64,000 nt of DNA, taken from the NCBI GenBank assembly GCA_900197625.1, contig FZLS01000005.1:1-64000 (forward strand). Direction: 5' to 3'. The notes below the pieces were generated by a model, which had not been told where the DNA came from, made no database searches, and saw nothing but the letters and a program-made list of their open reading frames with translations. Shown one piece after another: positions 3,001-19,360 of this stretch (the stretch's first letter is position 1; each line of letters opens with the position of its first letter). The position numbers and the translations under genes are program-made. The DNA comes from Rhodobacteraceae bacterium Water-Bin34. Its GTDB lineage: Bacteria > Pseudomonadota > Alphaproteobacteria > Rhodobacterales > Rhodobacteraceae.

Positions 3001-6000
3001 TTTGATGATGATAATCACTGGGGCTTTAAATCACCAGATAACGAATGGCAGATTTACTTAGAAAGAAATGCTCGTACCATTCTTTACTACAACGGTGGTC
3101 AGCAGGCTCGTACACAAAATGGTTACTTCGAAGCAAATAACCAGTTGCGTACTCCAATCTTCTATGATTCAAATGATACTAATTTCTACGTAGATCCAAA
3201 TGCTACTTCAAGATTGCGTGGATTAACAACAGTCGATATAATTACATCTCCAGGAATTACTGGTACCGCAGGTGCATTAAGATCTAGAGATAATAGAATA
3301 GTTGAGCCAAATGAAGATTCTGCAAGCCAAATGAAGTTTGGTTTCACATCTTGGGATAACAATAACACTGCTCCTTGGGCTGATTACTTGCACCTAAGAT
3401 CTTATGGAGATTCTTCGGGTGGTTCAGATAACCTTCTTATGTTTAAGAAGTCTGGTCGTGGAATGCGTTTATGGCAACAATCATTTAATTCAGGCACTAG
3501 ATATACTGCATACTCTAACATCGCAATATATAATGCTAATCCAGGCGGTGGTTCAAATGCATACTTCTACGCAAGTAGATACTATGATTCAGATGATACT
3601 GGTTATTACTTAGATCCAAATAGTAACTCACGTATTAAGCATCTTAAAGTTGCTGCTACAAGTGCTAATGCAAGATATGACTTTGCTGCTCTTGAAGTTA
3701 GAGAACTTAACCATGCTGGTGCTCAAAGTGCTAATGCTCAAACTGCACCAAGAATTGGTTTCCACTGGGGTGGACGAGTTGCATCGCAAATTATGCTTGA
3801 AACAAATGGTGAGATCCAGATTAGAAACAATCCTGGTACTGGCTATGAAGATTTCAGAGCACAAATTGGTTACTTCCAAGGTGATGTAAGATCTCCTCGT
3901 TATTACGATTCAAATAACACTACTTATTACGGTGACTTTGCAAGTACATCGATAATGCATACACTCGATGTTCGCTCTGAAGTTTATAACGATGGTTGGT
4001 TCCGTAACGATACTGGCGGCCGCGGTTTATATAGTACACCATACGCTATGCATTGGATGGCGGTAAATAATACCACTTGGAGAGCATACGGCGGGCAGAG
4101 TTCTGTAAAAATAGAAATGAACACCTCTGGTAATAACAGAAGAGGGTCATTCTACGCAAACAACAGCAACGAAGTTGGTATTCTATCTCAAGACAATGGT
4201 TGGGCATTACAGGCTACTAACGGTAAAGTAGATTCGCATCATAACTTCTATGCTCCTATCATGTACGATAGAAATGATAGTAACTACTATGTAGATCCTA
4301 ATAGCACGTCACGAATGAACGTTGTTCGTGCTAATAAATTTACAAATGATGGTTCAGTTTCTTCTGACGATGGCTTTGGTATATATTGGAGTTCAGATCA
4401 ATCACCAGCATACGCAATCTTTAGAGAATCTGGTGGTTGGTCTAACCCATACCCAGATATGCGTATTGCGAACCACACTGGTATTAAGATGGGTGCAAAC
4501 GCTGGCTACAATGGTATGCGTTTCTACACTGACTATCAAATGGCCGGTCAGGTTATGTCGATTAACAACTCAGCTGATCCACTTGGTGGCGGTAACGTTT
4601 ATGTTAATAATAACCTGCAAGCTGGTACATCGTTAAGAGCACCAATCTTCTACGATTCAAATAACACAGCTTATTACTTTAACGGAGCTAGCAAGTACAG
4701 CACAAGATTTGAAGGTGTTAATGCTAGAACTGAAGCATGGCTAGGAATGCCAGGTCATACTCGAAACAGTGGCCAAAACTACAGATCAAGACCGAACTTT
4801 ACAGGTGATAGCAACTATTGGACAGGTTCCTTTGGTTGGGGTCGCCAAGATATGAACGTCGTTGGTACTTGGGGTTCGGGCTTCATTGATTCATGGTCTA
4901 ATCCAGGCAACCAGCCTTCAGGTACATCTCACTGGGTTGGCATGCAAGCTTCTCACTATCGTAACTCTAATACTTCTGGTTATGGTTGGCAGTTAGTTGG
5001 TGGTCCAATTGAGAACTTAAGACTAAGAAGTTCTTGGTCAGGGTGGAGAGCATGGCGTACAGTTCCAGTACTTGATGTTAACAACGGCAATGGCGGTTCA
5101 ATGTATGCTGGTCGTTATTACGATTCAAATAACACTGGTTACTACTGCGATCCATCATCGTTCTCTAACTTTAACACCGGTGTTCGTGCTACTGAGTTTT
5201 ATGCTCGTAACTGGTTCCGTAATGATAGTTCTCGTGAAGGTATTTATAACGAAGGAACTGGTGTACATGCTTATTCATGGCAAGCCGGGTTTTACGCGAT
5301 TACTGGTAACAACAACTCTGGTTCTATGCATCTACAGCTTAGAGCAGCCAATAACGGTACAATGTGTCGTTGGATGCACGGTGATAGAACTTGGGCAGGT
5401 GATCTTAACGCTGCTGGTCAATGGCAATTACAAACACGTCACCAAGATGGTTACTCACCATCTTTAAGATTCATTGAATCTAGTAACGAATCTTGGACTG
5501 GTAACATTGGTAACGATGGTGGTAAGATTGAATATCACTCAAACCGTTTCTATATCGAAGCGGGTGGTAACTCAAACCGTATTGTTCAGTTCCGTCGTAA
5601 TGGTTCTGATAGATCTTATATTGATAACAACGGCCTATACGTTGGTACAGCTACTTCAGCTCGCTGGGCTGACTTGGCAGAAAGATATACTGCTGATGCA
5701 ATCTATGAGAATGCAACTGTTTTAGGTGTTAACCTTGACGGTGATTCTGAAGCTACTCTATGGCAGCCAGGAATGCCTCTATTAGGTGTTATCTCTACTA
5801 ACCCCGCTGTTCAAATGAATGATATGGGAATTGAACCAGGAAGTAACACTAAGAAAGCTAAAATGAATCCATTCATTGCTCTTAAAGGACGTATTCCAGT
5901 CTTAGTAGTTGGCGATGTTAAGAAAGGCCAATGGGTAATTCCAGCTGGTGACGGTAAGGCTAAGGGAGTGGACTACGGTACACCTGGTATAAATAGCTAT

Positions 6001-6060
6001 GATATAATTGGTATCGCACTAAGCGATAGTGAAAATGGTGAGGTAGAGGTGAAAGTATAA
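1..6060 (+). CDS. Giant tail-fibre protein, 5' end outside window
   Basis: The reading frame is open from base 1, so the gene begins upstream. More than 2,000 residues are visible. The body has 13 copies of a Y-Y-D-S-N-D-T-x-Y-Y-x-D-P-x-x-T-S element separated by Gly/Asn/Ser-rich segments, as in repetitive fibres of marine T4-like phages. The last 130 residues form a distinct domain starting W-A-D-L-A-E-R-Y, a C-terminal block found in other phage fibres. There is no obvious S74 autoprotease Ser/Lys signature. The protein probably forms a trimeric receptor-binding fibre. It is followed after one base by two small Cys-tail proteins that may belong to the same structure. The fibre call is secure; the receptor is unknown. 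Confidence 0.88.
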   Translation, partial: GTQRVNIDNNSADFSVNVYAPRYYDSNDNNYYVDPAEDSIMNSIILDDYVYHNGNTNSYFGWAANNNYKIFTNGAERFNLDNNSADFSVNVYAPRYYDSNDNLYYVDPATISYMNNISFGKPGNGTNTKGRFLSIEGNADSSGEGSARIFFSEHNSSTAAQDKYGMSLAYRGGSATVNSVTGQPVTLTGLSNGEWGLLGYNNSINGNWAMKGPRDSSYVQARGSFRAPIFYDSNNTAYYTDQASTSIHNIQRVNQLQVDVAGRYIDSPSGNYGTIKVEGDTGGWAGYAIRDDWVFMSNGTANAGIYNDTRNEWSLQAQDNSWTRLYANGVHQLSAQNGYGYAPTSMRSPIFYDHDDTTYFGDFASRSKLKTLELGNQGNLTGSGSYPLGIWHNNRYLAGMRNSGAGANYPWLVHDNYNYNGSGSKDAFIVHFNGLGDRLFLDEAGNMLITGEMSASNYNLSAGNENISLNPAYGVGKTELKLFDGAKYWEKRAIEALQGIENAPTGTTAEYVKSPDAPAPSSYVLRTSSYRTFYSDYIEVQPGEEIFGEMYVKRISGSGGLFYYGVERFDKDKKPIGGNTGTTYFTASAQNVTSTSWVKYTGYTTIPTTHTPYAGSDGGGVRYVRMRVLMNHSGGGALREFTPPILMRTKVPSRIRTDEAVYSPIYYDSNDTNFYLDPASTSKLNTVDASNFRDRDNTGRFMNPNSGGNVQGSWNWNNGSIENLNNLSFNDPGPQEGIRWKAGNEWKIYESPNDLATNGGGNLQFTSGSGAGTMRARIDSSGDLWAGRYARAQRFYDTNDAAYYVDPNGTSIQAAIELRTGGLKMARNYTDNAIWFNKGTDANHVLWNHYYGGPGARGAAGSGGFDGIKWNTYAGIHLQGGLSGAYNLAKFHTTGAGNGNAHYVQLYANNVEQLGTRGGYGYAPNSMRSPLFYDQDDTTYYGNFASTSRMNVINANMYSLNDGWDIYDDDSDTLTIRSNNGDHGEIIFRDSGSTNCGRIYFDDDNHWGFKSPDNEWQIYLERNARTILYYNGGQQARTQNGYFEANNQLRTPIFYDSNDTNFYVDPNATSRLRGLTTVDIITSPGITGTAGALRSRDNRIVEPNEDSASQMKFGFTSWDNNNTAPWADYLHLRSYGDSSGGSDNLLMFKKSGRGMRLWQQSFNSGTRYTAYSNIAIYNANPGGGSNAYFYASRYYDSDDTGYYLDPNSNSRIKHLKVAATSANARYDFAALEVRELNHAGAQSANAQTAPRIGFHWGGRVASQIMLETNGEIQIRNNPGTGYEDFRAQIGYFQGDVRSPRYYDSNNTTYYGDFASTSIMHTLDVRSEVYNDGWFRNDTGGRGLYSTPYAMHWMAVNNTTWRAYGGQSSVKIEMNTSGNNRRGSFYANNSNEVGILSQDNGWALQATNGKVDSHHNFYAPIMYDRNDSNYYVDPNSTSRMNVVRANKFTNDGSVSSDDGFGIYWSSDQSPAYAIFRESGGWSNPYPDMRIANHTGIKMGANAGYNGMRFYTDYQMAGQVMSINNSADPLGGGNVYVNNNLQAGTSLRAPIFYDSNNTAYYFNGASKYSTRFEGVNARTEAWLGMPGHTRNSGQNYRSRPNFTGDSNYWTGSFGWGRQDMNVVGTWGSGFIDSWSNPGNQPSGTSHWVGMQASHYRNSNTSGYGWQLVGGPIENLRLRSSWSGWRAWRTVPVLDVNNGNGGSMYAGRYYDSNNTGYYCDPSSFSNFNTGVRATEFYARNWFRNDSSREGIYNEGTGVHAYSWQAGFYAITGNNNSGSMHLQLRAANNGTMCRWMHGDRTWAGDLNAAGQWQLQTRHQDGYSPSLRFIESSNESWTGNIGNDGGKIEYHSNRFYIEAGGNSNRIVQFRRNGSDRSYIDNNGLYVGTATSARWADLAERYTADAIYENATVLGVNLDGDSEATLWQPGMPLLGVISTNPAVQMNDMGIEPGSNTKKAKMNPFIALKGRIPVLVVGDVKKGQWVIPAGDGKAKGVDYGTPGINSYDIIGIALSDSENGEVEVKV
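61..5160 (+). repeat. Thirteen degenerate fibre repeats (YYDSNDTxYYxDP)
   Basis: Copies begin near 70, 283, 688, 1051, 1996, 2383, 2794, 3160, 3580, 3900, 4261, 4648 and 5116. The nucleotide core is close to tatgattcaaatgatact. Spacing is irregular (about 210 to 950 bp), so each copy marks the boundary between different intervening domains rather than a simple tandem array. Confidence 0.85.
5988..5995 (+). promoter_or_regulatory. T4-type late promoter TATAAATA inside the fibre gene end
   Basis: An exact TATAAATA lies 66 bp before the start of the first Cys-tail gene. That spacing is similar to the late promoters of other genes in the window (31 to 75 bp). It falls within codons for G-I-N-S, so coincidence is possible. 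Confidence 0.5.
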
Positions 6061-6061
6061 T

Positions 6062-6475
6062 ATGGCAACGTATGCACAATTAAATTCTAATGCGCAAACA
6101 CAATGTGGACGGCAGCTCCGTACGTTTGATAAGACTATGGCTTTAACAGTTCAGACTTACACTAGAGGCCAATGGACTGGTGGGTCAGGATACAGATACC
6201 CAAGAACAGGCAGTAACAGTGTAGCTATTTCTAGAAATTATTATCACAGGTTTGAATATGTTAGCGCATCATATTCTGTATATAATGGTTATCTCGATGG
6301 CGGAATATACAGTGGTCAGCTTATACACGACGATGATGTATATAATACTATTTCTAGAGTTGTAAGAAGAACAGTAGATTTAATTGAAGGCAGAATGGGA
6401 ACAAGAAACGTTAGTGCTCTTGTATGTCATTCTAGTTGCCACGGTTCTTGTCATTCATCAAGAGGTAGACGCTAA
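6062..6475 (+). CDS. Small protein with C-terminal (CHxx)3-RGRR tail, copy 1
   Basis: A 137-residue protein of unknown family. Residues 1-120 are polar and aromatic with likely beta structure; shared blocks with the next gene are Q-L-R-T-F-D, R-F-E-Y and V-R-R-T-V-D. The C-terminus is CHSSCHGSCHSSRGRR: three Cys-His tetrads (Cys122, 126, 130) and a basic end. It starts one base after the fibre stop and its stop overlaps the next ATG (TAATG). Six radical-SAM genes follow, so I infer a precursor-like or metal-binding tail modified by those enzymes. The tail also reads as His-Xaa-Ser repeats, like substrates of His-Xaa-Ser radical-SAM systems. Function unproven. Confidence 0.8.
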   Translation: MATYAQLNSNAQTQCGRQLRTFDKTMALTVQTYTRGQWTGGSGYRYPRTGSNSVAISRNYYHRFEYVSASYSVYNGYLDGGIYSGQLIHDDDVYNTISRVVRRTVDLIEGRMGTRNVSALVCHSSCHGSCHSSRGRR

Positions 6476-6879
6476 TGGTTATGGAGAGAAGAGACGTCAA
6501 CTCGTGGGTTCAAACCTATGGTGGGGCGCAATTAAGAACATTTGATAGAACTGTTACATTTAGAATAACTACATACACGAGAAGTCAGCGTTTCTTTGGT
6601 AATAGCTCGGCAGGTGGTACCAGCTCTGTTACTACTGTAAATAGATACGCTCGATTTGAATATACAGGTGCATCTAATAGCATCTATAATAACTATGTAG
6701 ATTCTGGAATTAACGCCGGTAATGTAATTAATCCACAAGATATTGTGGATACGATGGAAGATTTAGTAAGAAGAACTGTTGACGTAATAGAACCAAGAAT
6801 AACTAACCGCACGGTGAATGCAAGAGTTTGTCACGGAAGTTGCCACCAAAACTGCCATTCATCACGAGGGAGAAGATAA
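6475..6879 (+). CDS. Small protein with C-terminal (CHxx)3-RGRR tail, copy 2
   Basis: A 134-residue paralogue of the preceding gene, translationally coupled to it through TAATG. The body diverges but keeps Q-L-R-T-F-D-R-T, A-R-F-E-Y, Y-N-N-Y-V-D-S-G-I and V-R-R-T-V-D. The tail is CHGSCHQNCHSSRGRR (Cys119, 123, 127), keeping the Cys spacing, the His after every Cys and the SSRGRR end exactly. Stronger conservation of the tail than of the body suggests the tail is the functional or recognised element. The first radical-SAM gene starts two bases after the stop. It could be a fibre-tip or chaperone subunit; no known family recognised. Confidence 0.8.
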   Translation: MVMERRDVNSWVQTYGGAQLRTFDRTVTFRITTYTRSQRFFGNSSAGGTSSVTTVNRYARFEYTGASNSIYNNYVDSGINAGNVINPQDIVDTMEDLVRRTVDVIEPRITNRTVNARVCHGSCHQNCHSSRGRR

Positions 6880-6880
6880 A

Positions 6881-8056
6881 ATGACAATGCAAAAATCATA
6901 CTGTAAACAAATGAGATATTCTGGTCCAGAAAGTCTCGCTCCTAAAGATCAGGATAAGTTTGATGTACTTATTCAGATGGAAGTATTATCGGGATGTGAA
7001 CAGGCATGTTTAGGTTGTTTTGTTGATAAGAATATTGATCCTGGAATGAATCAACAGATTATTGATAGAGCGAAAGAATTAGCAGATGGTGTTAAAAGAA
7101 CTGGTCTTAATTTAAGAGAGTTTGTTATTGGACCAACCGATTTCTTTACGGCATCTAACACAGAATCTGTTTTAAATAACGAAACAGTTCAAGAAATTAT
7201 GCGCGAACATACCGGCGCTCGTATTGCTGCTCCTGCAAAGTTTGATGTAGCAACTATGGAAAGGGTACAAGAAATATTTAATATTCTCGATGATGAAGAT
7301 AAATTCCGTCGAGAAATGATTATCGAATTTATTATGCCAATCGGTAAAGTAGATCAAATGCTTAATGATATAGTTTATCACCAAGAAGTAATGCGAAAAG
7401 TAAAATTCTTCAAAGAAAATACTCCTAAGCAAATGGATTGGTCTTGGACTTTACAAGCATCTAATGTTGTTGGCAAGAAAATCGATAAAGAAACATATAA
7501 TAAAATTATTCAAAAATCTGTTAATGAGTATGAAACAATTGTAGAAATGAATCCAGCTTTCTCAAGAGCAAATTCACAATTAGTACAAAGAAAGAATTTA
7601 TTCGGATGGAACGAGTTCTTAGGTAGAGTTATTGATGAAGGTAACTCTAACGAGACAGTAATGTCAATGGCTAATCTGTATTGTAACTCAATCAACTTTG
7701 TTGGTATTACAATTGTTCCAGGCGAAAACGGACCGACTACACACTTAAACGTAATGTTACATGAGCAAGCATTCTTCTTAAAGAATAAAAATCTTGATGT
7801 TACTGGTTTAACGTTTGAAGAAATCTTAGATAGAAAACACGAGCTTGTTACTAAAGGAATAAATAGATCAAGTAAAGTAAAAGATTGCAACGGTTGCCAA
7901 TTCGCAGTAGCATGTGCAAACAGGTTAATATTCGAGGCACAGGAATCATTGAATATTGATGGTTGTGTTCTTAACAAAGATGTATTAGATCATTATAATC
8001 CATTCGACTTTACATGGAATGATGATGCACTTAAAAAATTAGGAGAGGCTTCATGA
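6881..8056 (+). CDS. Radical SAM enzyme 1 (IGPTDF subgroup)
   Basis: 391 residues from the ATG at 6881, which has gggag 8 bases upstream; a longer reading from 6818 would overlap the previous gene. The radical-SAM cluster motif is C39-x3-C43-x2-C46 (C-E-Q-A-C-L-G-C). Where most family members have a GGE motif this protein has I-G-P-T-D-F-F (residues 83-89). A C-terminal auxiliary-cluster motif, C336-x2-C339-x5-C345-x16-C362, resembles a SPASM/twitch domain. Cys and glycine-motif spacing closely match the enzyme at 10017, so the two form a paralogous pair. The radical-SAM assignment is firm. Acting on the adjacent Cys-His tails is inference from context. Confidence 0.88.
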   Translation: MTMQKSYCKQMRYSGPESLAPKDQDKFDVLIQMEVLSGCEQACLGCFVDKNIDPGMNQQIIDRAKELADGVKRTGLNLREFVIGPTDFFTASNTESVLNNETVQEIMREHTGARIAAPAKFDVATMERVQEIFNILDDEDKFRREMIIEFIMPIGKVDQMLNDIVYHQEVMRKVKFFKENTPKQMDWSWTLQASNVVGKKIDKETYNKIIQKSVNEYETIVEMNPAFSRANSQLVQRKNLFGWNEFLGRVIDEGNSNETVMSMANLYCNSINFVGITIVPGENGPTTHLNVMLHEQAFFLKNKNLDVTGLTFEEILDRKHELVTKGINRSSKVKDCNGCQFAVACANRLIFEAQESLNIDGCVLNKDVLDHYNPFDFTWNDDALKKLGEAS

Positions 8057-9156
8057 TTGGCCAAAGTTATTATTATTTAAATAACAAAAAATATTTGACA
8101 AATATCACTAACTGTGGTACAATTATTAGTGAGGTAAATAATTTCTATCACACTAAAACCCCACGCTCTATTAAAATTGTAGAACCATCTGAAGAAGGAC
8201 ATCAACTTTTACCGAACCAACTTTTGGAAGAAGCAGAAGCTATGAGGACTGGTTCAACTGATTTGATTGAGTTTGTTGAATGGGAAGATGCAAGTACTAT
8301 AGAATTTATAGAAAACAGTGATAAGTGCATTGTTGCTTATACAGATGAAGCTGACATGTTGGATATATATGTTAGGTATACTCAAGGTCTATTAACGGCT
8401 TCTGGTTTTTATGCTGGTCACGAAACAAGCGTAGATCAAATCGCAGCAGAGTTTGTTACTAAGGTTTGTGAATCTGATTCTCTATTAACAATCATGAATG
8501 ATTCAACATTATTCCAAGATACTTTAGGATATTGTAATCAAATTTTAGCAGATGCAGATAAACCTGCATTTACTGTTCAATACGAAAATGGTAAGAACTT
8601 TAGTTACGATTTGTTGTTCTTCTTAAATGATTATTATCCTTGTGATGCAGTAAGGTCTCTTATTATTGAAAAGTTCACAATACATTCTAGTGAAATTACT
8701 AGAGACATTATGGAACAATTTACGGGTATGCGTAGAGATTTAGCTTATATTTGTGCAGTAATTGATTGGATGAACGCAAACGCTACAGCAGAAAATAGAT
8801 TAGCCACTGATAAAGCAGATTTTATCAATAGGGTTTTTGTAGAACCGCACACAGCAGAAAATAGAAATTGGACCGTTCCTTTCTATGCTCTTGCAGATTT
8901 ATGGAATAAAGTAAAAGATAATGCAGATTTTAAAGCAGCCCACGCCGCGAAATCAGATGGTATTACGAGTTGGGAATATAATGATGAATACAACGAACTC
9001 AATTATATGATTCCAATGACTAAAAAAATATTAGAACAAACTTGGGATATTAATAACCTATCAGCAGAATTAAAATTACTTGAAGCTGAAGTACAGTTTT
9101 TTGCTAAAAGACAAAATAGGATGCCGTATTTAATACACAAATACAGTTTAGTATAA
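8053..9156 (+). CDS. Unknown 367-residue protein in the radical-SAM locus
   Basis: It starts by ATGA overlap with radical SAM enzyme 1, so the two are translationally coupled. No recognised domain. It is acidic and mostly helical in the C-terminal half, with scattered Cys (for example near residues 21, 140 and 165) but no cluster motif, and no signal peptide or membrane segment. Its position between the two IGPTDF radical-SAM paralogues suggests a partner, recognition or scaffold protein of that pair, or a virion protein they modify. It could equally be a structural protein by itself. Function not known. Confidence 0.7.
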   Translation: MIGQSYYYLNNKKYLTNITNCGTIISEVNNFYHTKTPRSIKIVEPSEEGHQLLPNQLLEEAEAMRTGSTDLIEFVEWEDASTIEFIENSDKCIVAYTDEADMLDIYVRYTQGLLTASGFYAGHETSVDQIAAEFVTKVCESDSLLTIMNDSTLFQDTLGYCNQILADADKPAFTVQYENGKNFSYDLLFFLNDYYPCDAVRSLIIEKFTIHSSEITRDIMEQFTGMRRDLAYICAVIDWMNANATAENRLATDKADFINRVFVEPHTAENRNWTVPFYALADLWNKVKDNADFKAAHAAKSDGITSWEYNDEYNELNYMIPMTKKILEQTWDINNLSAELKLLEAEVQFFAKRQNRMPYLIHKYSLV

Positions 9157-9174
9157 TTTAAAGGTGATTATAGA

Positions 9175-10011
9175 ATGAGTAATGAAACACACTTAGACGC
9201 AGAATTTGAAGTAGTTGACGAAGAAAACAAAGTTATTAGGCACGTAGTTACAGACGTTTCCGAAAAGAAATGCTATGCGCTGCCACTGTCTCCTCAAGAT
9301 CTCGTAGCAATTTATAAAGAAAAAGGCGAAGACCCAGATAACAAATTTGTTTTGTGGGTAAACTATGCTGAGTCGAGATTAAAATTATCTCCTGCGCATA
9401 TTATGATATATCTTGCGAATACTAATTTCTACGCAACTTTTTCTGCAGTAGATGAAGATCTACTTGTTGAATATATTAAAACAGACTTTCTAGTAGATGC
9501 TCCTATCCTTGCAAGAATCCTTACAAACATTATCAAAACAAAATATGGCCATGAGTTATCAGAATTAGAAATGCAACTGTATAACCTATTTGACGAAAAT
9601 CAAATCGCTGAGTTTATTGAAAATCAAGGAGAATTGCTCGACGATCTCATTGAAAACATTAAAGGTCTTATTCCTTTTGTTCTTCAACACGCGTGGGATA
9701 ATTTAAGCGATGAAGATAAAAAGACACACTATGACTTAGAAACAACTTTAAATGATATTACTGCAGTCGATAAACCAACAAAGTGTGGCCCAAATGTTGC
9801 CATGCTAGTTCAATGTGTTTGGGATATGTTTCTTGTTATAACTACTTATGAAGGAATAAGCGATAAGTATAATACTAACTTATACAATGATAAACCAAAG
9901 TATAATGGCGCTGACTTATTCCTCATGCTAAACAATACTAATGTTATTCCAAACGTTCTTAGCTTTTTGCCACCAGGACTGCTCTTACCAGATATCGAAA
10001 ATCCGGCATAA
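9175..10011 (+). CDS. Unknown 278-residue acidic protein in the radical-SAM locus
   Basis: The ATG at 9175 follows aaaggtgatt. The protein is acidic and predicted mainly helical, with several short hydrophobic stretches (for example residues 80-92 and 160-172) that are not long enough to be clear membrane spans. It has no cofactor motif and no recognised family. It lies five bases before radical SAM enzyme 2 and 18 bases after the 367-residue protein, so it is probably co-transcribed with both. I infer an accessory role in the same pathway, with low certainty. Confidence 0.7.
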   Translation: MSNETHLDAEFEVVDEENKVIRHVVTDVSEKKCYALPLSPQDLVAIYKEKGEDPDNKFVLWVNYAESRLKLSPAHIMIYLANTNFYATFSAVDEDLLVEYIKTDFLVDAPILARILTNIIKTKYGHELSELEMQLYNLFDENQIAEFIENQGELLDDLIENIKGLIPFVLQHAWDNLSDEDKKTHYDLETTLNDITAVDKPTKCGPNVAMLVQCVWDMFLVITTYEGISDKYNTNLYNDKPKYNGADLFLMLNNTNVIPNVLSFLPPGLLLPDIENPA

Positions 10012-10016
10012 GTCTA

Positions 10017-11180
10017 ATGTCCATAATAAAGAATAATCTTTATCATGCGCTCACCACGGAAACAAAAACAAAACCAGTTTCAGCAGTAAAGTTACAACTA
10101 GATGTTCTTGATGGGTGCAAACACAAGTGCCCTGGTTGTTTTGTCCATCGCAGGGGAAACGCAAGCGACGAGCACCAATTTAAAGATGCAATAAAATTTG
10201 TAGATGATATATCATCTCGTGGTATATTAATAGATGAAATTATTATTGGTCCAACTGATTTCTTATCTTCAGAAAACTTCTATGATGTAATGCCTCATTT
10301 GGTTGATATGATCAATGAGCATTCTCCAATACTTGCTTTTATAACAACTTTAATAGATGATAAGCTTGAGCCGTGGGTTAAATGGCTTGGTAAAAATATT
10401 AACTTAAATACTGAAATTGAAATAGGGATTGCAATTGATCCTTTTAAGTTTCAAAATCAAATTAATTACGCAGAAAACATTAAACGCAAGCTCAAATATA
10501 TTAGTGATAATGTAGAACACGACGTCGTATATACATTTTTACTTAATATTAAAGACTATGGTTTAGATTATAAAAATTTGCACGATCAAGCAGTAAAAGA
10601 ATTTACTACAACCATAGACTTTATCCCTTCAGTATCTCGATCAGCCAAACCTCATGTTACGCTCGCAACTATTGATAAGTTCAACGAATATTTTGATATA
10701 TTAGCGGCTGGAACACGAATTAATAATATTATGGTCGATCATTCACACGCTGGCATGAACTACACCGTTTTAAATTACAAGAAAGGCAATTGGTGGTTAT
10801 CTCCATTCTTATATGAAAACATGGTCGTTGAAGATGATATATTTAAAATAGAATCATTTGATGATGTAGAACCAATCATGTCGTCACAATTTAACAGAGC
10901 AAAAGGTACTGAGTGCGAAACCTGCCCAATGCTATTTTCCTGTTACAACCGAAAGATTATCCTATTAAGAGATTACCTTGGCGTAGATCGCTGTATCGCA
11001 CCTAAGGAAAATATGATAAATAATCTTTTTAACTACGACTCTGCTGCTAAAGAAATGTATAACTGGTCTGAATATACGCCAGAAGCTGATAAGAACGGAT
11101 ATCGTAAGAAGTTTACATTAGCTGATGACACCGATCAAGAAGAACTCGATAGAATAAAAGACATCTTTTTCACAAATTAA
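10017..11180 (+). CDS. Radical SAM enzyme 2 (IGPTDF subgroup)
   Basis: 387 residues. The cluster motif is C34-x3-C38-x2-C41 (C-K-H-K-C-P-G-C) followed by F-V, as in enzyme 1. I-G-P-T-D-F-L (77-83) replaces the usual GGE. The C-terminal cysteines C300-x2-C303-x5-C309-x16-C326 have exactly the spacing of enzyme 1. The two enzymes are therefore diverged duplicates, reminiscent of paired radical-SAM proteins that act together on one peptide. It ends just before a promoter at 11184, closing the first transcription block. Confidence 0.88.
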   Translation: MSIIKNNLYHALTTETKTKPVSAVKLQLDVLDGCKHKCPGCFVHRRGNASDEHQFKDAIKFVDDISSRGILIDEIIIGPTDFLSSENFYDVMPHLVDMINEHSPILAFITTLIDDKLEPWVKWLGKNINLNTEIEIGIAIDPFKFQNQINYAENIKRKLKYISDNVEHDVVYTFLLNIKDYGLDYKNLHDQAVKEFTTTIDFIPSVSRSAKPHVTLATIDKFNEYFDILAAGTRINNIMVDHSHAGMNYTVLNYKKGNWWLSPFLYENMVVEDDIFKIESFDDVEPIMSSQFNRAKGTECETCPMLFSCYNRKIILLRDYLGVDRCIAPKENMINNLFNYDSAAKEMYNWSEYTPEADKNGYRKKFTLADDTDQEELDRIKDIFFTN

Positions 11181-11183
11181 CTG

Positions 11184-11212
11184 TTTACATTCCTTAAATT
11201 CTATGTTATAAT
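11184..11212 (+). promoter_or_regulatory. Sigma70-type promoter TTTACA-17-TATAAT
   Basis: TTTACA at 11184-11189 and a perfect TATAAT at 11207-11212, separated by 17 bases, in the 55-bp gap before the cupin gene. It is the only clear early-type promoter seen on the + strand. An overlapping TATAAATT at 11212-11219 is one base off the late consensus, so the site may work in both phases. Confidence 0.7.
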
Positions 11213-11235
11213 ATAAATTATGATGGAGTAGTGCA

Positions 11236-11715
11236 ATGAACTTTTTAGAGTTTGAAGATTTTGTATTGAGCGAACAATGCTACAATAACCACGACGTCTC
11301 ATATATAGACTCAAAGGGTTTGCAGCATTATTTGTTCTACGATTCATTTTGGGAATACCAGCCCAAGATGTTAAGTCTGCTCATGAGCGACAATACGATT
11401 AAAGTCGAGCAGATGGAAAAGCATTATGGATATATAAATCAAACCGCTCATATTTTCTTTAATAAGACAAATGGGCCAACTTTTGATGTTCATACAGATC
11501 CTGTAAAAGTTATCATAGAATGTTTAGATGGTACTAAGCATATGGAAATCGAAGGAAACGCAGTAGTATTGAAGCCTGGTGAGTCTGTAATAATACCGCC
11601 GAACACAGAGCACAGGGCACTAAATTATAAAAAGGCATTGATGGTGAGTTATGGCATTCGCGACACAGAAACACTTGATGGTTTACGTAAAAACAACGGA
11701 GACGTGCAATCTTAA
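11236..11715 (+). CDS. Cupin-fold protein
   Basis: 159 residues with ggag 10 bases before the ATG. The C-terminal half has a single cupin barrel: H-T-D-P-V at about residues 91-95, a Gly-rich turn (L-D-G-T-K-H-M), then L-K-P-G-E-S-V-I-I-P-P-N-T-E-H-R-A at about 118-134, the classical second cupin motif with its metal-binding His. The N-terminal 85 residues are not recognised. Cupins of this kind bind metals or sugars or act as dioxygenases. It is the first gene after the 11184 promoter and overlaps radical SAM enzyme 3, so it probably works with that group. Confidence 0.75.
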   Translation: MNFLEFEDFVLSEQCYNNHDVSYIDSKGLQHYLFYDSFWEYQPKMLSLLMSDNTIKVEQMEKHYGYINQTAHIFFNKTNGPTFDVHTDPVKVIIECLDGTKHMEIEGNAVVLKPGESVIIPPNTEHRALNYKKALMVSYGIRDTETLDGLRKNNGDVQS

Positions 11716-12685
11716 TTGCTCTCACTGTTTTACGTCAGGCAGCAAAGGTAGAAAAATATATTTTAAACCAAAGGAAACCGCTGATTGGTGTAATGGTTTA
11801 GATTCTGATACGTGCGATAAAGCTATACATTTTGAGTATCACGGTGGTGAACCGATGCTTGCTCCAATGGAAGATATTCTAGAGTTTTATAATATAACAA
11901 AAGAACATTGGGGTGATCGTTGTACTCATGGAATTACTTCCAATTTAGTATTTAAAATAAGAGACGAACATCTAAAATTCTTCGAAGAAAACATTGACTA
12001 TATGGGTACTTCTTGGGATCCAAATATAAGATTTTCTAATGAGAAGCAAAGAAAACTTTGGGAAGATAATGTTAAGCTTTTAACTTCTCGTGGAATGAAA
12101 ATTAAATGCTTTATTTCTGTATCTAAAGATGTTGTTAAAATGGATCCTCTTGAGATTGCTGATTATATGCATTCATTAGGTATATGGGATATTGCATACG
12201 AGCGTTTAACTCATAATGGTAACGCTACAATTAATCTTGATATATTCCCTCACAATCGAGAGCTCGATGATTTCTGGCTGCGCATGCACGCAAGAACAAA
12301 AGGCCACCCAGTAAAAAATTCATTCCTAGAATCTGTATACGATAAATTTGATCACGGTGAAACTCGTAACGGAACATTCTGTAGAGATTGTGAACAGAAG
12401 CTTCATACAATTAATGCCGACGGTACTATTGCTGGTTGTCCTAACTCTGCTCCTACAGATCATTATGGTCATATTAGCGAACCGGTTCCAAAGGTTCGTG
12501 GTTGTTATAAGCGTATGGAAATTATTGCTTCGGAATTACATGTGCGTGATATGAGATGCTATAGCTGTCCTGTATTCGATTTGTGTCACTCTGACTGTCA
12601 CCAATTGCAATGGATGGATGATGTATGTCCTGCTCCTAAGTCGTTAATGCTAAAGTTGGCGGAGGAAAAAAATTGGATCTCATAA
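11651..12685 (+). CDS. Radical SAM/SPASM enzyme 3
   Basis: 344 residues from 11651; a start at 11678 would give the short leader seen in the two following enzymes (nine residues before the first Cys), so the start is uncertain. Motif C19-N-L-N-C23-S-H-C26, then Y-H-G-G-E-P (canonical GGE). The C-terminus has a full SPASM pattern: F-C-R-D-C and A-G-C-P, then C-Y-S-C-P-V-F-D-L-C-H-S-D-C and a last Cys before P-A-P, suited to two auxiliary 4Fe-4S clusters. Families with this layout (anaerobic sulfatase maturases, peptide cyclases) modify Cys, Ser or other side chains in proteins. It overlaps the cupin gene by 65 bases. Confidence 0.9.
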   Translation: MAFATQKHLMVYVKTTETCNLNCSHCFTSGSKGRKIYFKPKETADWCNGLDSDTCDKAIHFEYHGGEPMLAPMEDILEFYNITKEHWGDRCTHGITSNLVFKIRDEHLKFFEENIDYMGTSWDPNIRFSNEKQRKLWEDNVKLLTSRGMKIKCFISVSKDVVKMDPLEIADYMHSLGIWDIAYERLTHNGNATINLDIFPHNRELDDFWLRMHARTKGHPVKNSFLESVYDKFDHGETRNGTFCRDCEQKLHTINADGTIAGCPNSAPTDHYGHISEPVPKVRGCYKRMEIIASELHVRDMRCYSCPVFDLCHSDCHQLQWMDDVCPAPKSLMLKLAEEKNWIS

Positions 12686-13740
12686 TTAAACCAACCGAAG
12701 CCTGCAACTTCAAATGTTCCTTTTGCTCTTCAACAGCGATCGATCCTGATAATGCGGGATTGCTTGATTTAGATTATATTTACAAATTCTTAAAAAGATA
12801 TCCTGATACAGAAACTATTATTGTAAACGGTGGTGATCCTCTAATGATTGATCCAAAATATTATTGGGATTTAATAGATCATTTAGATGAGCATGGTTAT
12901 AAGTCTTCTATTAGTTTTACTTCTAACCTTTGGCCATTTCTTGTAAAACCTGAAAAATGGAAAAAGCTATTTAATCACGAACGTATGGGTGTATGTACAT
13001 CATTCCAATATGGTGGCGGTAGATTAAAAGGTGATTTCTCAGAATTTACTGAAGAAGATTTTTGGAAATGCTCAGACGCGATGTTAGAACACTGTGGATA
13101 TAGGCCAGATTTTATTGCCGTTATTGTTGAAGAAAACTATGATAACGCAATTAAGAACGTAGAGCTTGCTAAGAAGATGGGTGTTGTGTGTAAATTAAAT
13201 TATGCATTTGCATCGGGCGTACAAGACACTACGTTGCAGTTAAGTAAGATATATGAGCTGTACGTTAAAATAGAAGAAATGGGTCTTGGTGATTGGGAAT
13301 ATAATACTGTTCAAATGAGAAATAGGTTGAATGGTAATGCTACTACTTGTCCGCAAAATAGATTTTGTGATTCAGGTATTCGTGCGTTTAATCCTGGTGG
13401 TGACTATTATTCTTGTGGCTCATTTGCTGATGAAATGGATTATCCTATTAGCTTTAAAGAAGAAGTTGAAGAGCACGGCGAAACGCAACTACCTTTAACA
13501 ATGGATCCTAATATTCAATCAATGAAAATGGCTTGTTATACTTGTCCGATGTTTGAAATATGTAATGGTTGTAAAAAGACTATTCGTGATCATAAGAGAC
13601 AAGGAATTGTGGAACAACATTGTAAGCACATGAAAACTTTAGCGCCACGCATATTAAAAATTAATGGCAAAGATGCAAGTTCAGTTACGCCTTATGTTGA
13701 CGAATCAGATCAAAATAAAATATCTGTCGCACAAATATGA
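12673..13740 (+). CDS. Radical SAM/SPASM enzyme 4, TTG start
   Basis: 355 residues. The start is TTG with ggagg 7 bases upstream, overlapping the previous gene by 13 bases. Motif C11-N-F-K-C15-S-F-C18, N-G-G-D-P as the glycine motif, and a C-terminal C-Y-T-C-P-M-F-E-I-C-N-G-C plus a later Cys in V-E-Q-H-C, a SPASM-like auxiliary site. The leader K-P-T-E-A-C-N-F-K-C aligns with enzymes 3 and 5, marking a tandem family distinct from the IGPTDF pair. It is likely a peptide-modifying enzyme; the substrate is inferred from context only. Confidence 0.9.
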   Translation: MDLIIKPTEACNFKCSFCSSTAIDPDNAGLLDLDYIYKFLKRYPDTETIIVNGGDPLMIDPKYYWDLIDHLDEHGYKSSISFTSNLWPFLVKPEKWKKLFNHERMGVCTSFQYGGGRLKGDFSEFTEEDFWKCSDAMLEHCGYRPDFIAVIVEENYDNAIKNVELAKKMGVVCKLNYAFASGVQDTTLQLSKIYELYVKIEEMGLGDWEYNTVQMRNRLNGNATTCPQNRFCDSGIRAFNPGGDYYSCGSFADEMDYPISFKEEVEEHGETQLPLTMDPNIQSMKMACYTCPMFEICNGCKKTIRDHKRQGIVEQHCKHMKTLAPRILKINGKDASSVTPYVDESDQNKISVAQI

Positions 13741-14639
13741 ATATATCAATAAACCCTACATATTATTGTAACTTTCGTTGCGACTTTTGTTATCTAACCG
13801 AGGCTCAACTGGCTGATAGGAATAAGATTAGTCCTGAAAAATTAGATGAAGTACTCAGTAAAGTTACAGATCCAATAGACCATATTGATTTATATGGTGG
13901 AGAAATATCTCTATTAACTGAAGAATATTTTTATGAAATAAAGAAAGTGATACGTAAGTACTATGACGGAAATATTAATATTAACACTAATTTTAGTGCT
14001 TTGCCAAATTATTTTTATGATGACGATATTACTATTAGTGTGTCGTATGATTTTTCTGCTCGTGAAAAAGAGCAATTTGTTTTAAATAACATGATGGCTT
14101 CGCAAAAGCCATTGTCTGTTTTAATTCTAGCATCTGAGAAGGTGTTAGCAACCGATGTAGAGTTCATGATCTTTACATTAAATATGTGTGCACAGGTACA
14201 GTCTGTAGAGATTAAACCCTACTCTACGAATCAGGCAAATGCTCACCCAGTGACACATCGAGACTTTGAAGAGCATATTAAGAAATGGATTGATGCAACA
14301 ACAGAGAAAAGATTCCAATTTATAAACCAAGAGTTAATAGAAGATGCTCTTGATGGGAAGTACTCTGCGTTCAGCGACGACCACGTATATATAACACCGA
14401 AGGGAAAGTTTGGCGTACTTGAATTTGATAAAGATGACCGAGAATATTTTAAAGAATATTCAACTTATCAAGAGTATAAACAATGGGCTGCACTTGAACC
14501 TATTAATAATGTATCTGATATATGCAGGGAATGTCCGTATTATGGCGGGTGTTTGACTGAACATTATAGATACGTAAAAGATTTAAACAATAGTTGCAAC
14601 GGATATAGGGGATTATTAGACTGGTATGATGGGAAATGA
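13737..14639 (+). CDS. Radical SAM enzyme 5 (short)
   Basis: 300 residues, starting by ATGA overlap with enzyme 4. Motif C11-N-F-R-C15-D-F-C18, Y-G-G-E-I, and a reduced C-terminal Cys set C-R-E-C-P-Y-Y-G-G-C followed by N-S-C. It is about 50 residues shorter than its neighbours, mainly in the middle of the barrel, and its auxiliary site has fewer cysteines, so it may carry one extra cluster rather than two. It belongs to the same tandem family as enzymes 3 and 4. Confidence 0.88.
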   Translation: MNISINPTYYCNFRCDFCYLTEAQLADRNKISPEKLDEVLSKVTDPIDHIDLYGGEISLLTEEYFYEIKKVIRKYYDGNININTNFSALPNYFYDDDITISVSYDFSAREKEQFVLNNMMASQKPLSVLILASEKVLATDVEFMIFTLNMCAQVQSVEIKPYSTNQANAHPVTHRDFEEHIKKWIDATTEKRFQFINQELIEDALDGKYSAFSDDHVYITPKGKFGVLEFDKDDREYFKEYSTYQEYKQWAALEPINNVSDICRECPYYGGCLTEHYRYVKDLNNSCNGYRGLLDWYDGK

Positions 14640-14640
14640 T

Positions 14641-15036
14641 ATGAAAGACTGGAAAGCAAGCCAAATGGCGTTTCACACCGCTAACAAAAATTACAAGGAC
14701 GATTTGACCGACGAGAAAATCGTTATTTCTGAAGATATCGTAGATGATGCACTCATGCATTTTGACCGATATATAGAAAACTGGGTTTATCCCGCAAAGT
14801 CATATGTAGTAGCAATATGCTATGCAAAATGGTTAGAACGAGACTTCGGAGAAGATTTCTACGATGTACTCGACGATGAGGAATTATTGTTTGGAAATGA
14901 TCCATACTTTGTTCCTTATTCAGAAGACGAACAAGTATATGATGCTATTTTAAGTGAACTCGATTTTCAGGAAGATCTAGGAATGGTTCCTGATATTTAC
15001 GAGTATTATAGAGAGGAAATGTTTTTTGGGAGTTAA
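14641..15036 (+). CDS. Unknown acidic 131-residue protein
   Basis: The start is taken at 14641 because gggaa lies 6 bases upstream; in-frame ATGs at 14626 and 14629 lack a good ribosome site. It is strongly acidic and rich in Asp, Glu and Tyr, and predicted helical, with no Cys cluster. It sits between radical SAM enzymes 5 and 6 with almost no gap on the left and 25 bases on the right. Small acidic proteins in such loci can be peptide-recognition or carrier proteins, but no RRE-like fold can be asserted by eye. Confidence 0.65.
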   Translation: MKDWKASQMAFHTANKNYKDDLTDEKIVISEDIVDDALMHFDRYIENWVYPAKSYVVAICYAKWLERDFGEDFYDVLDDEELLFGNDPYFVPYSEDEQVYDAILSELDFQEDLGMVPDIYEYYREEMFFGS

Positions 15037-15061
15037 ATTGACAGTAGGAGGCAATTTAATA

Positions 15062-16162
15062 ATGACCGATCGTCAGCAAAATAATGGGCTGGCGGTTGCG
15101 GCTGATCCTGCTGCTGATGAAGTGACTAAAATTATCCTTGAAGATAAACGTCCTGATATCGGTGAGATAGAGTTAACTCTATTTGAAAACTGTCATTTAA
15201 ATTGTTTCTTTTGTCACCACGATAAACAATCAACAGTTGGTTTATCAAGAGAAGAAATATTTTCTAAACTCAGTCTCGTTGAAGACCATTTAATTAAAAT
15301 GAAAGGTCGAGCTGAGGTTGTTCAAATCAATATGGTCGGTGGAGAGTTATTCCAAGATAGAATATCTGAATGGGCTTATCCAGTTTACTATGATTTCTTA
15401 ATTGCTATTAAAGAATTATACGACAAATACGAACATAATATTAAAGTAGTATGGGTTACATCGTTTCAGTTTATTAAAAGAGAAGCAGTACAAAAGCTTA
15501 TCGACGATTTAAACGCAGCCGATATTCCATCTTATATCATATGTTCATATGACTTTGATGGTAGACCTGTTAAAGGACCATATGGTAAGAATATAGAATA
15601 CTTTGCAGATTATATTACATCAATTAATATGGTTGCAACTGTACCTTCTATTGAAAAGTTTATGGAAGATAAGGACGAGTATTTCCATTATCTATATGAG
15701 AAGTTTGATAATTTCTACTTTGATGATTATATTCCTGATAAAGGCTTTGATCATTTAATACCAAGTGATAGTTTATATCTCGAGTTCTTAAAATTCGTAT
15801 ATCATAACTATCCTGATATTAATCCTATGAAAGATCTTATAAGTAAAGATAAGAACCATATGCATTGTTTGTCTTTAAACAAGGTTACGATCTTTCCAGA
15901 TAATAGTACATCTAATTGTCGTTGGGATAGATATACTCCCGAAGATTTTAATACACCATTGCATAGAAAAGATAATGCGTCGATGATGCAAGCTTATATG
16001 AATGAGCATGGTTGTTTATCATGTAGATGGTGGGATAAGTGTGGATTTAGATGTTATACACAATGGGACTGGAAAAATCGTGAACGTGATCTTCCTGATT
16101 GTATTATGAGAATGTGGTTTAATTATATGGAAAAAATAGAAAATGAAAAAAGTAAAGCTTGA
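15062..16162 (+). CDS. Radical SAM/SPASM enzyme 6
   Basis: 366 residues from 15062, preceded by taggagg 10 bases upstream; an earlier frame start at 15026 would overlap the previous gene. Motif C44-H-L-N-C48-F-F-C51, then V-G-G-E-L. The C-terminus has N-C-R-W-D followed by C-L-S-C-R-W-W-D-K-C-G-F-R-C and a final D-C, a SPASM pattern with Trp-rich spacing. Its N-terminal extension of about 35 residues before the core strand is longer than in the other enzymes. The stop overlaps the next gene by 20 bases. Sixth radical-SAM gene in about 9.3 kb. Confidence 0.9.
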   Translation: MTDRQQNNGLAVAADPAADEVTKIILEDKRPDIGEIELTLFENCHLNCFFCHHDKQSTVGLSREEIFSKLSLVEDHLIKMKGRAEVVQINMVGGELFQDRISEWAYPVYYDFLIAIKELYDKYEHNIKVVWVTSFQFIKREAVQKLIDDLNAADIPSYIICSYDFDGRPVKGPYGKNIEYFADYITSINMVATVPSIEKFMEDKDEYFHYLYEKFDNFYFDDYIPDKGFDHLIPSDSLYLEFLKFVYHNYPDINPMKDLISKDKNHMHCLSLNKVTIFPDNSTSNCRWDRYTPEDFNTPLHRKDNASMMQAYMNEHGCLSCRWWDKCGFRCYTQWDWKNRERDLPDCIMRMWFNYMEKIENEKSKA

Positions 16163-16847
16163 TTGCTATACATTTGATAAAAATTTACTTACACTGCAGC
16201 CGATAGTAAATAAAGTTAATAATCCATCTTGGTGGAGCAAACTTAAGAAATATTATGAGCACTTCGATGTAAGATCAGGAATAAAAACACCGGTTCCAAC
16301 TGTTAAAGTATGTCCTGGCGTTGCTGAATATATACGTGATCCAATACATCTTAAATTATGGACTGATATTATTTTCAAAGTAAAGCCTGACGGTAGAGTA
16401 ACTTTCGTTGCTCCTGATTTTCGTCAGCGCCAACACATGGACACCCACGCAAAGGAACAAACAGGAAAAGATTTATATCCAGGCAGAGCAACCGTAAAAC
16501 TTGCAAATCCTTGGGTCGTGAAAGGATCCGACAGAACAAGATTTATGGTTACGGAAAACCATTATAATGAAGATTTAAGACAGCATGGAATTATGGTATC
16601 GCCAGGAATAATTAATTTTTATGATCAGCATTCACTTAATTTATTTTTAGTCTTTCCTTTGAAAGATGAAGAATATCAAGTTGAATTAAAATATGGAACT
16701 GTTCTAGCATCATTACACGCTATGACTGATAAGGAAGTTGTTGTAAATAATCATTATACAACACCAGACGAATATAACGATATGCAGAATATGTTTCCTA
16801 GTACATTTTTTGGTAGATATTATGCAAAAAGAAAGGTGACGAAATAA
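16143..16847 (+). CDS. Unknown 234-residue protein, cupin-like features
   Basis: It starts inside the end of radical SAM enzyme 6 with a-rich spacing typical of coupled genes. A Trp-rich N-terminus (P-S-W-W-S-K-L) and a beta-rich C-terminal half containing H-S-L-N-L-F-L-V-F-P, Y-G-T-V-L-A-S-L-H-A resemble a jelly-roll core, but the metal ligands are not clear. Proteins of similar plan occur next to 2-oxoglutarate oxygenases in marine phages. Product unknown; probably a cytoplasmic enzyme or binding protein. Confidence 0.65.
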   Translation: MKKVKLDCYTFDKNLLTLQPIVNKVNNPSWWSKLKKYYEHFDVRSGIKTPVPTVKVCPGVAEYIRDPIHLKLWTDIIFKVKPDGRVTFVAPDFRQRQHMDTHAKEQTGKDLYPGRATVKLANPWVVKGSDRTRFMVTENHYNEDLRQHGIMVSPGIINFYDQHSLNLFLVFPLKDEEYQVELKYGTVLASLHAMTDKEVVVNNHYTTPDEYNDMQNMFPSTFFGRYYAKRKVTK

Positions 16848-17414
16848 ATGGAATATAAAGATCTTTGGCCTACTGCGTTTGGCATGGGTAAATTTGAATG
16901 CCCTGAAATGCTAGATTATATTTTGACTAATTATGATTTAAATGATATGTCAAAAATGACTGAAGTTAATGGATTTAATCTATTTGACCATGATCACCCA
17001 GCAATAGATACGTTTAAAAAGACGTGTATAGATAACTTTGATGAATACTTGCAGCGCAACTTAGGGAGACCTTTATCTGATTGGAGTGGCCACACCGTGA
17101 AGTCTTGGGTATCAGGGCATGGCTCAGGATATAATATGACTATACATAATCACGCAGGCGCTACTTTGTCTGCAGTGTACTATTTACTAGCAGAGGAAAA
17201 ACAATTTGGAGGAGAATGCGTATTCGATGATCCTAGAACAAATGCAAACCGAGGATATGACGAAAAGTTTAAGCCAATGTTTGAAAGATTCACACATACG
17301 CCAGAAACTGGTGATTATTTAATATTTCCTAGCTTTACATATCATCACGTAAATCCCTATACTTCATCCTTACGGTTTTGTTTGCCTGTAGATTTGTTTC
17401 TAGACGATAACTAA
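16848..17414 (+). CDS. 2-oxoglutarate/Fe(II) oxygenase
   Basis: 188 residues, adjacent to the previous stop. It resembles the putative 2OG-Fe(II) oxygenase family common in marine phages: W-V-S-G-H-G-S-G-Y-N, then H-N-H-A-G-A-T-L-S-A-V-Y-Y-L, a G-G-E-C-V-F-D-D-P-R strand, and near the C-terminus G-D-Y-L-I-F-P-S-F-T-Y-H-H-V-N-P-Y with a following Arg that would bind 2-oxoglutarate. Such enzymes hydroxylate protein side chains or small molecules. It closes the radical-SAM locus and might add a hydroxylation step, but may act elsewhere. Confidence 0.82.
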   Translation: MEYKDLWPTAFGMGKFECPEMLDYILTNYDLNDMSKMTEVNGFNLFDHDHPAIDTFKKTCIDNFDEYLQRNLGRPLSDWSGHTVKSWVSGHGSGYNMTIHNHAGATLSAVYYLLAEEKQFGGECVFDDPRTNANRGYDEKFKPMFERFTHTPETGDYLIFPSFTYHHVNPYTSSLRFCLPVDLFLDDN

Positions 17415-19356: not shown

Positions 19357-19360
19357 TCGT

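Follow-up and report, generated by a model that had tools for sequence, protein, structure and literature searches.

A putative multi-enzyme radical-SAM pathway associated with (C)HxS-tailed proteins of phage fibre loci

What is the target of six radical S-adenosylmethionine (radical-SAM) enzymes encoded behind the tail fibre gene of a phage? The question is raised by the window analysed here, the first 64 kb (64,000 nucleotides) of the 91.8-kb T4-like myovirus contig FZLS01000005.1 from the assembly of Rhodobacteraceae bacterium Water-Bin34, in which a long fibre gene is followed by the genes for two paralogous proteins, T1 and T2, whose products end in (CHxx)3RGRR, and then by the enzymes, E1 to E6. 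From sequence comparisons, we consider it likely that such fibre-associated T proteins are modified at their C-terminal (C)HxS core by a dedicated pathway of several enzymes. The core is read as the substrate because core and enzymes co-occur across unrelated replicons. The genes of the locus are listed below.

121..6060 (+): long fibre protein, 1979 aa, with YYDSNDTxYYxDP-like repeats; PHROG 19602 (tail fiber), 1.5e-5
6062..6475 (+): T1, candidate substrate 1, open reading frame (ORF) of 137 aa; PHROG 35144, 4e-5 over the C-terminus
6425..6472 (+): T1 core, CHSSCHGSCHSSRGRR, from the sequence
6475..6879 (+): T2, candidate substrate 2, ORF of 134 aa; PHROG 35144, 5.8e-8; homolog in Burkholderia jumbo phages
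6829..6876 (+): T2 core, CHGSCHQNCHSSRGRR, from the sequence
6881..8056 (+): E1, radical SAM of class rA (CEQACLGC) with C-terminal CX2CX5C-gap-C, by motif
8053..9156 (+): U1, uncharacterised partner, 367 aa, recurring in related loci
9175..10011 (+): U2, uncharacterised partner, 278 aa, the most constant accessory, recurring in related loci
10017..11180 (+): E2, radical SAM of class rA (CKHKCPGC), by motif and PHROG
11236..11715 (+): cupin, upstream of E3; Pfam Cupin_2, 35.1 bits, cut-off 27.2
11651..12685 (+): E3, putative SPASM radical-SAM maturase and most diagnostic enzyme, by motif and SPASM cysteines
12673..13740 (+): E4, radical SAM (CNFKCSFC) with C-terminal CX2CX5C-gap-C; Pfam Radical_SAM, 38.7 bits
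13737..14639 (+): E5, radical SAM (CNFRCDFC); Pfam Radical_SAM, 34.2 bits
14626..15036 (+): small likely partner of E5, 136 aa; PHROG 20737, 1e-40
15026..16162 (+): E6, radical SAM (CHLNCFFC), likely start near 15062; PHROG 1802, 6.8e-22
16143..16847 (+): PHROG 7084 protein, belonging to the cluster in some T4-like loci (23/191 loci)
16848..17414 (+): 2-oxoglutarate (2OG)-Fe(II) oxygenase; Pfam PF13759 (2OG-FeII_Oxy_5), 50.2 bits, cut-off 27

The fibre gene and T1 lie one base apart, the T1 and T2 genes share one base, and the ends of the cluster genes mostly overlap or nearly touch; after T1 and T2 the order is E1, U1, U2, E2, cupin, E3, E4, E5, the 136-aa protein, E6, the PHROG 7084 protein and the 2OG oxygenase. 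The longest ORF for E1 begins at 6818, and the start at 6881 was chosen since its relatives begin MxMQKS. The initial annotation of this DNA had described two (CHxx)3RGRR paralogues followed by six radical-SAM genes within about 9.3 kb, which the ORFs and motifs confirm: the six CX3CX2C ORFs span 9.28 kb, and they are the only ones among 40 window ORFs of at least 180 aa to carry this motif within the first 150 residues, while a control 49-kb stretch of phage Atu_ph07 has it in 0 of 36 ORFs. The cupin and the 2OG oxygenase that it named both score above their Pfam cut-offs; the locus start that it gave, 5988, falls inside the fibre gene, and U1, U2 and the small protein at 14626-15036 are additions to its list.

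Conservation of the tail and its association with radical-SAM genes

A degenerate DNA pattern for (CHxx)3RGRR was scanned over IMG/VR and over the genomes of 84,980 species, one per species. The motif forms the exact protein C-terminus in at least 118 of at least 120 matching IMG/VR stretches, the other two listed stretches having no ORF of at least 60 aa that bears it. The one-genome-per-species scan gave 15 stretches, of which 12 are exact C-termini, one is internal and two are without such an ORF. A chance origin of the tail was rejected: the whole 84,980-species scan holds three chance-type matches, none of them C-terminal.

Full-length T proteins range from 120 to 364 aa, and among 60 sampled members the last 16 aa have a median pairwise identity of 81%, partly by construction in that the pattern fixes the C, H and RGRR positions, versus 27% in the body. 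In the fourth position of each CHxx, which the pattern leaves free, Ser stands in 147, 130 and 141 of the 156 distinct tails; the initial annotation had noted that the tails are also readable as H-x-S repeats, and this bears it out, as does a variant core, CHSSHSSHSSHSSRGRR, which in one genome keeps His-x-Ser while losing the inner Cys. Other variants are CHGNFPPPCHGSRGRR (four genomes, two near-identical), CHTNVPTPPPCHASRGRR (one genome, on a 4.15-Mb contig) and CHSNHCSHSNHGSRGRR (one genome); among the variant cores a whole repeat is also swapped for FPPP, and the tails of two isolate phages outside the pattern, Atu_ph07 and Phosso, end RSRR. The first CH and the last H-x-S-R-G-R-R are constant, and the His-x-Ser units outlast the Cys. 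Attachment of c-type haem was considered and rejected, as CHxxCH would read CX3CH and the CHSSHSS variant breaks the pattern.

The 191 strict-tail loci reduce to 128 by tail sequence, part of which had entered through E1. The raw counts of 118, 47 and 191 are not independent because many IMG/VR loci overlap or are near-identical, and the count relied on here is that of loci found by T only: 117 distinct loci, 26 of which have at least 9 kb downstream and are called well-covered. All 26 carry radical-SAM genes, three to eight in each, so that several enzymes per locus, which the initial annotation had called extraordinary at six, are usual for the system. Tails without radical-SAM neighbours were sought, and the reading of the initial annotation was not refuted: none occurs in these 26 loci, and an E3 ortholog is present in 12 of 12 metagenome-assembled genomes (MAGs) with the tail. 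Five of the 117 loci have no radical-SAM gene, each with at most 1.8 kb downstream; the contigs of three (L084, L158 and L127) encode E1 or E3 according to other loci, the remaining two being L148 and L152. With all sources taken together (E1-found loci, isolates and the window), 46 well-covered loci have three to nine radical-SAM genes, U2 in 45 and U1 or U1b in 43, a count that is partly circular because 27 of the 46 entered through E1; the T-found-only counts are smaller yet equally one-sided. Starting from E1, T is also present in 47 of 48 IMG/VR loci, and in the remaining one only 82 E1 residues matched, at a contig end.

The link could also be tested with E3 as bait, at places where no T was known beforehand. 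In the isolate phage collection, seven E3 records (E<=1e-8) represent six phages, and T adjoins E3 in all of them. FLC6, FLC8, SURPRISE13 and DT01 were known beforehand for T; in the two new isolates, Atu_ph07 (two records, T read in one) and Phosso, T is the gene next to E3. Among 15 IMG/VR loci of the type with E3 next to T, T lies directly downstream in 12 and the other three are cut off; nine of these 12 contigs were known already from the T scan, and the new contigs with enough DNA have T directly downstream of E3 in 3/3. A further 65 IMG/VR loci (L199-L263) have a 5-kb flank only, too short for this test. In the class of genome G024, which includes the Bacteriovorax MAG G019, E3 (E<=1e-40) is present in 13 of 129 genomes. 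The tail profile finds T in five of the 13, all known from the pattern scan, and seven of the other eight have a variant core within about 4 kb of E3.

The enzymes and their partners

Each of E1 to E6 has, besides CX3CX2C, a CX2CX5C-gap-C arrangement near the C-terminus. Pfam Radical_SAM scores above its cut-off for E4 and E5 only and below it for E2 and E3; PHROG 1802 (radical SAM) is matched by E3 to E6, E1 matches only the unnamed PHROG 31457, and E2 matches PHROG 31457 and, weakly, PHROG 626. The canonical SPASM pattern is CX9-15GX4C - gap - CX2CX5CX3C - gap - C, and E3 has all of these cysteines (C247-x10-G258-x4-C263, C303x2C306x5C312x3C316 and C326), invariant in 25 of 25 sequences (alignment A6). 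The SPASM domain model TIGR04085 scores 24.5 bits for E3 and 21.0 for E4, near but under its cut-off of 27. By enzyme class, the 128 loci, most of them truncated, contain E3 in 80, E6 in 79, rA in 51, E4 in 50 and E5 in 46, with some members missed as classes were called by short motifs.

U1, U2 and the 14626-15036 protein recur in related loci, and among the well-covered T-found loci U2 is present in 26/26 and U1 or U1b in 24/26 (U1 versus U1b: hhalign probability 31.7%, E 5e-4). The AlphaFold2 (AF2) model of U2 has a predicted local distance difference test score (pLDDT) of 89; its fold search against the PDB gave no match at E<=0.001, and the best VIA comparison reached Z 3.6 over 56 residues. 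Profile searches with U1b and U2 pointed to no Pfam family consistently and to no relative in the PDB at E<=0.1. Because U2 is so constant, we would guess that it presents the substrate. In L147 a 448-aa protein at 10930 (+) fuses an E5-type radical SAM to a PHROG-20737-like domain, which suggests that E5 and the 136-aa protein work as a pair.

The pathway that we propose would take as its substrate the C-terminal core [CHxS]3-R-G/S-R-R of T, a small structural protein whose gene adjoins that of a long fibre. Its His-x-Ser/Cys repeats may be acted on stepwise by several radical-SAM enzymes that carry auxiliary-cluster cysteines near the C-terminus (E3 and E6 most frequent, plus E4, E5 and at least one of the rA class, E1 and E2 in the window), helped by U1, U2, the small E5 partner, the cupin and the 2OG oxygenase. 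As to chemistry, the likeliest guesses are that Cys, His and Ser are cross-linked with one another, or that C-H functionalisation comes first and hydroxylation after it, and the modified tail would be rigid, protease-resistant and perhaps metal-binding. Finished T would then be mounted on an adhesion fibre, presumably at its end: in phages the tail fibre, and in bacteria of predatory groups perhaps an S74 fibre anchored by a pilin.

Fibre neighbourhood and spread

Fibre and virion genes were taken as six clusters with labels assigned by us, and the 75 T-found loci that extend at least 2.5 kb upstream were read against them. In 59 of the 75 a fibre/virion-cluster gene is among the four that precede T, and in 19 it is the one directly before T. 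In T4-type fibres the adhesin gp38 is encoded by the gene directly after the distal fibre gene; such a gp38-like position of T is found in the window and is not the rule. Pfam and PHROG scans of T gave no adhesin match, and Foldseek no match at E<=0.001. A TssE/gp25-type match of T2 was weak and judged to be chance. The window fibre at 121..6060 matches no family in a Pfam scan; its C-terminal module (..GRxPVxVxGxVxKG..GxAL..) also occurs, by eye, in fibre genes adjoining other T genes. Among nine such phage fibre/virion proteins scanned, three have collagen repeats and four have weak Peptidase_G2 autoproteolysis matches below the cut-off. Mass spectrometry of Atu_ph07 particles placed a cluster of virion proteins at coding sequences (CDS) 170-215, according to the part of the report consulted (PMC6102473). 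T of this phage is gp170, the first of that cluster, with the numbering checked against the baseplate (gp181), portal (gp198) and capsid (gp215).

The system occurs in T4-like marine phages, in jumbo phages that infect Burkholderia, Pseudomonas, Agrobacterium and Sinorhizobium, and on chromosomes of the Bacteriovorax class. The initial annotation had proposed a phage system; this stands in that many phages carry it, and is to be widened in that it is not confined to them. In G019, G024 and G027 of this class the cluster lies among ordinary chromosomal genes (named by eye). A protein with a prepilin-like N-terminus is encoded near the cluster in eight of 12 loci read by eye, a reading that left out G018 and G021. 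Four of these proteins were scanned: three exceed the cut-offs of both N_methyl and Peptidase_S74, and one that of S74 only. An N-terminal prepilin methylation motif and a Peptidase_S74 chaperone domain are thus joined in one chain at L281:7958-9142 (-), L284:9628-10917 (+) and L303:10579-11703 (+), and such proteins are possibly a pilus-anchored, phage-like fibre. Between the radical-SAM cluster and the pilin-S74 gene, a protein of 122-125 aa with an MNRRxFxxxI-type N-terminus recurs (L303:10118-10495 (-) and L302:10000-10368 (-)); two similar proteins match no Pfam family, and one no credible NCBIfam family.

Window E4 is 51% identical to a chromosomal ortholog in G129, E5 and the 136-aa partner are 50% and 47% identical to orthologs in G073, and E6 is 36% identical to one in G106, with U2 at 24% over 155 aa and the rA enzymes at 19-23% between the window and the Bacteriovorax class. 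Much of the pathway, beyond a single gene, is therefore common to phage and this class. Tentatively, we suggest a maturation class shared by tailed phages and predatory bacteria, in which a mobile SPASM-type plus U1/U2 cassette would provide a rewritten (C)HxS tail as warhead or adhesive at the tips of tail fibres and pilin-anchored S74 fibres.

The window contig itself is probably a phage binned into its assembly, because E3 (E<=1e-40) is absent from 60 genomes related to that assembly. The same assembly holds two more E3 contigs: G000:C48 (L315) repeats the whole window order, including two T genes, and G000:C81 (L316) ends after E5. Terminase-, sheath-, portal- and capsid-like proteins, recognised by eye, lie at about 22.5-37.6 kb in the window. 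Other features of the window are sugar-type genes downstream of the cluster (18307-21348), where a cytidylyltransferase fused to a mannose-6-phosphate-isomerase-type cupin (20560-21348 (+)) lies beside FkbM-like and glycosidase-like genes (these two by eye). By eye, we also found a large internal duplication at 32711-34177 (+), EDMNKVHTVDIDH..GKKKDLxKYLAKHYDSHDDAK.. occurring twice, a 663-aa collagen-like GxQG-repeat protein on the opposite strand (47096-49087 (-)) that is perhaps a second fibre, and two phage-borne genes resembling serine hydroxymethyltransferase (56654-57793 (-)) and peroxiredoxin (60735-61268 (-)).

Alternative readings and comparison with known systems

Several observations weigh against a pathway that modifies a fibre-mounted tail. 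Pfam Radical_SAM leaves E1 and E6 unmatched. The cupin is present in 86/191 loci (overlapping loci included) and in 8/26 well-covered T-found loci, and one of two 2OG-type clusters in 15/26, so neither looks essential. One of the 13 E3-bearing genomes of the G024 class, G102, has no tail protein in its 27.9-kb contig, on which the cluster begins at the contig end. A search with the tail alignment A1 found T in one of 16 E3-bearing contigs; this test carries no information, since in that group the distance from E3 to T exceeds 5 kb and the contigs are short, and in five of the other 15 T would fall past the contig end (coordinates by eye). One T was modelled, with an ordered body at moderate confidence (pLDDT 76), and its fold search against PDB and BFVD gave no match at E<=0.001. 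In 16 of the 75 T-found loci there is no fibre/virion-cluster gene within four genes before T. Finally, gp170 is assigned to virions by the limits of the published cluster, and the position of T in the particle is deduced from gene neighbourhood.

Of the alternatives, the one that fares best is a phage branch of the His-Xaa-Ser (Hxs) system. It would fit the conservation of the H-x-S unit, which was not searched for, the matches of the core of L307 (an HSS variant), over its C-terminus only, to HxsA (E 0.009), HxsA3 (0.16) and HxsA2 (1.4), and those of E3 to HxsB (1e-7) and E4 to HxsC (1e-5). We regard it as unlikely, as the scores lie far under the curated cut-offs: 16 bits against 121.65 for L307 with HxsA (TIGR03979), a model matched by none of 56 A1 members nor by nine of ten other T proteins, 31.1 against 370 for E3 with HxsB (TIGR03978), and 24.3 for E4 and 18.4 for E5 against 267.9 with HxsC (TIGR03977). 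The tail alignment A1 gave only weak hits in NCBIfam, no HxsD match was found among U1, U2, the cupin, the 2OG oxygenase and the 14626 and 16143 proteins, and other radical-SAM models score equal or better.

The enzymes might instead act on another target, such as a glycan, a lipid or another virion protein, with T merely carried in the operon; the sugar-type genes downstream in the window would suit this, and six enzymes seem many for 16 residues. However, the link between T and the enzymes persists across phage backbones, chromosomes, flanking genes and gene orders, the tail is kept while T bodies diverge, and E3 is of SPASM type, all of which makes a separate target distinctly unlikely. It is more doubtful still that the tail stays unmodified and that three Cys and three His per chain bind metal at a trimeric fibre tip, the radical-SAM genes serving otherwise. 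The HxH motifs of the T4 gp37 tip bind iron, and the Cys/His-rich exact C-terminus and the fibre neighbourhood agree with such a role, but it leaves unexplained the radical-SAM genes in 26/26 loci, E3 in 12/12 genomes and the conservation of Ser, and variant cores keep HxS while losing Cys (CHSSHSSHSSHSSRGRR) or swap a repeat for FPPP. Very improbable is a T that serves as precursor of a ribosomally synthesised and post-translationally modified peptide (RiPP), its modified tail being cleaved away to serve as a small molecule, cofactor or toxin. RiPP systems typically combine SPASM enzymes with repeat cores, and RGRR is basic, but proteins of 120-364 aa with an ordered modelled body do not resemble a short leader peptide; in 59/75 loci T has fibre/virion-cluster genes nearby, and it opens the Atu_ph07 virion cluster as published. 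Nor could any protease or transporter family be recognised in the window cluster proteins, several of which lack any functional assignment.

Modification of the tail of a fibre-associated protein is the reading that we retain, and tail-enzyme co-occurrence likewise supports the substrate core suggested by the initial annotation. A large conserved enzyme set appears devoted to some 16 residues of a viral structural protein. If so, virions would bear covalent chemistry that escapes both genome annotation and routine proteomics, the tail modification may be needed for phage attachment, and the same device would have been exchanged between phages and predatory-group bacteria. It would also be a naturally cooperating group of radical-SAM enzymes whose short substrate is defined, and phage-host pairs in which to test it already exist.

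The system is undescribed in the open-access literature searched, viruses included, as judged by listings, the starts of abstracts and passages, among them passages of PMC8066314, PMC11898562, PMC5468394, PMC11242549, PMC9062424, PMC8446631, PMC10783043 and PMC9301287. Radical-SAM genes are mentioned for the FLC6, S13 and RP12/RP31 phages, in passages that draw no link to a tail peptide. Pelagimyophages have radical-SAM cassettes inside the host-recognition cluster (PMC7029224), for which the passages concerned, unlike the present analysis, propose no tail motif, substrate or function. The MAT chimeric fibres of Bdellovibrio are trimeric S74 fibres of the predator related to phage tail fibres, in the parts of PMC10769870 consulted, where 'pilin' and 'radical SAM' appear nowhere in the main text; here, in contrast, the protein bearing S74 has a prepilin N-terminus and is encoded close to T and the radical-SAM genes.

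Among characterised enzymes, the SPASM maturases (PapB, DynA, AmcB, anSME) resemble E3 in CX3CX2C and the canonical SPASM cysteines, and its best NCBIfam matches are PapB (1e-11), DynA (6e-10) and AmcB (1e-9); they differ in that whole-protein scores of E3 are about one tenth of the cut-offs and that the substrate presumed here is part of a larger protein, its tail. The Hxs system (HxsA/B/C/D) shares His-x-Ser repeats and more than one radical-SAM maturase, but has two radical-SAM genes as against three to nine here, where there is also the fibre neighbourhood and the uncharacterised U1 and U2. Most known cases of radical-SAM maturation concern secreted peptides and enzyme cofactors. A RiPP is recognised by a ribosomal precursor whose core is modified by enzymes dedicated to it; of these features, a conserved core and co-occurring enzymes were found here. 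We read the system as a probable radical-SAM maturation of a ribosomal peptide, with a reasonable chance that it merits a class of its own.

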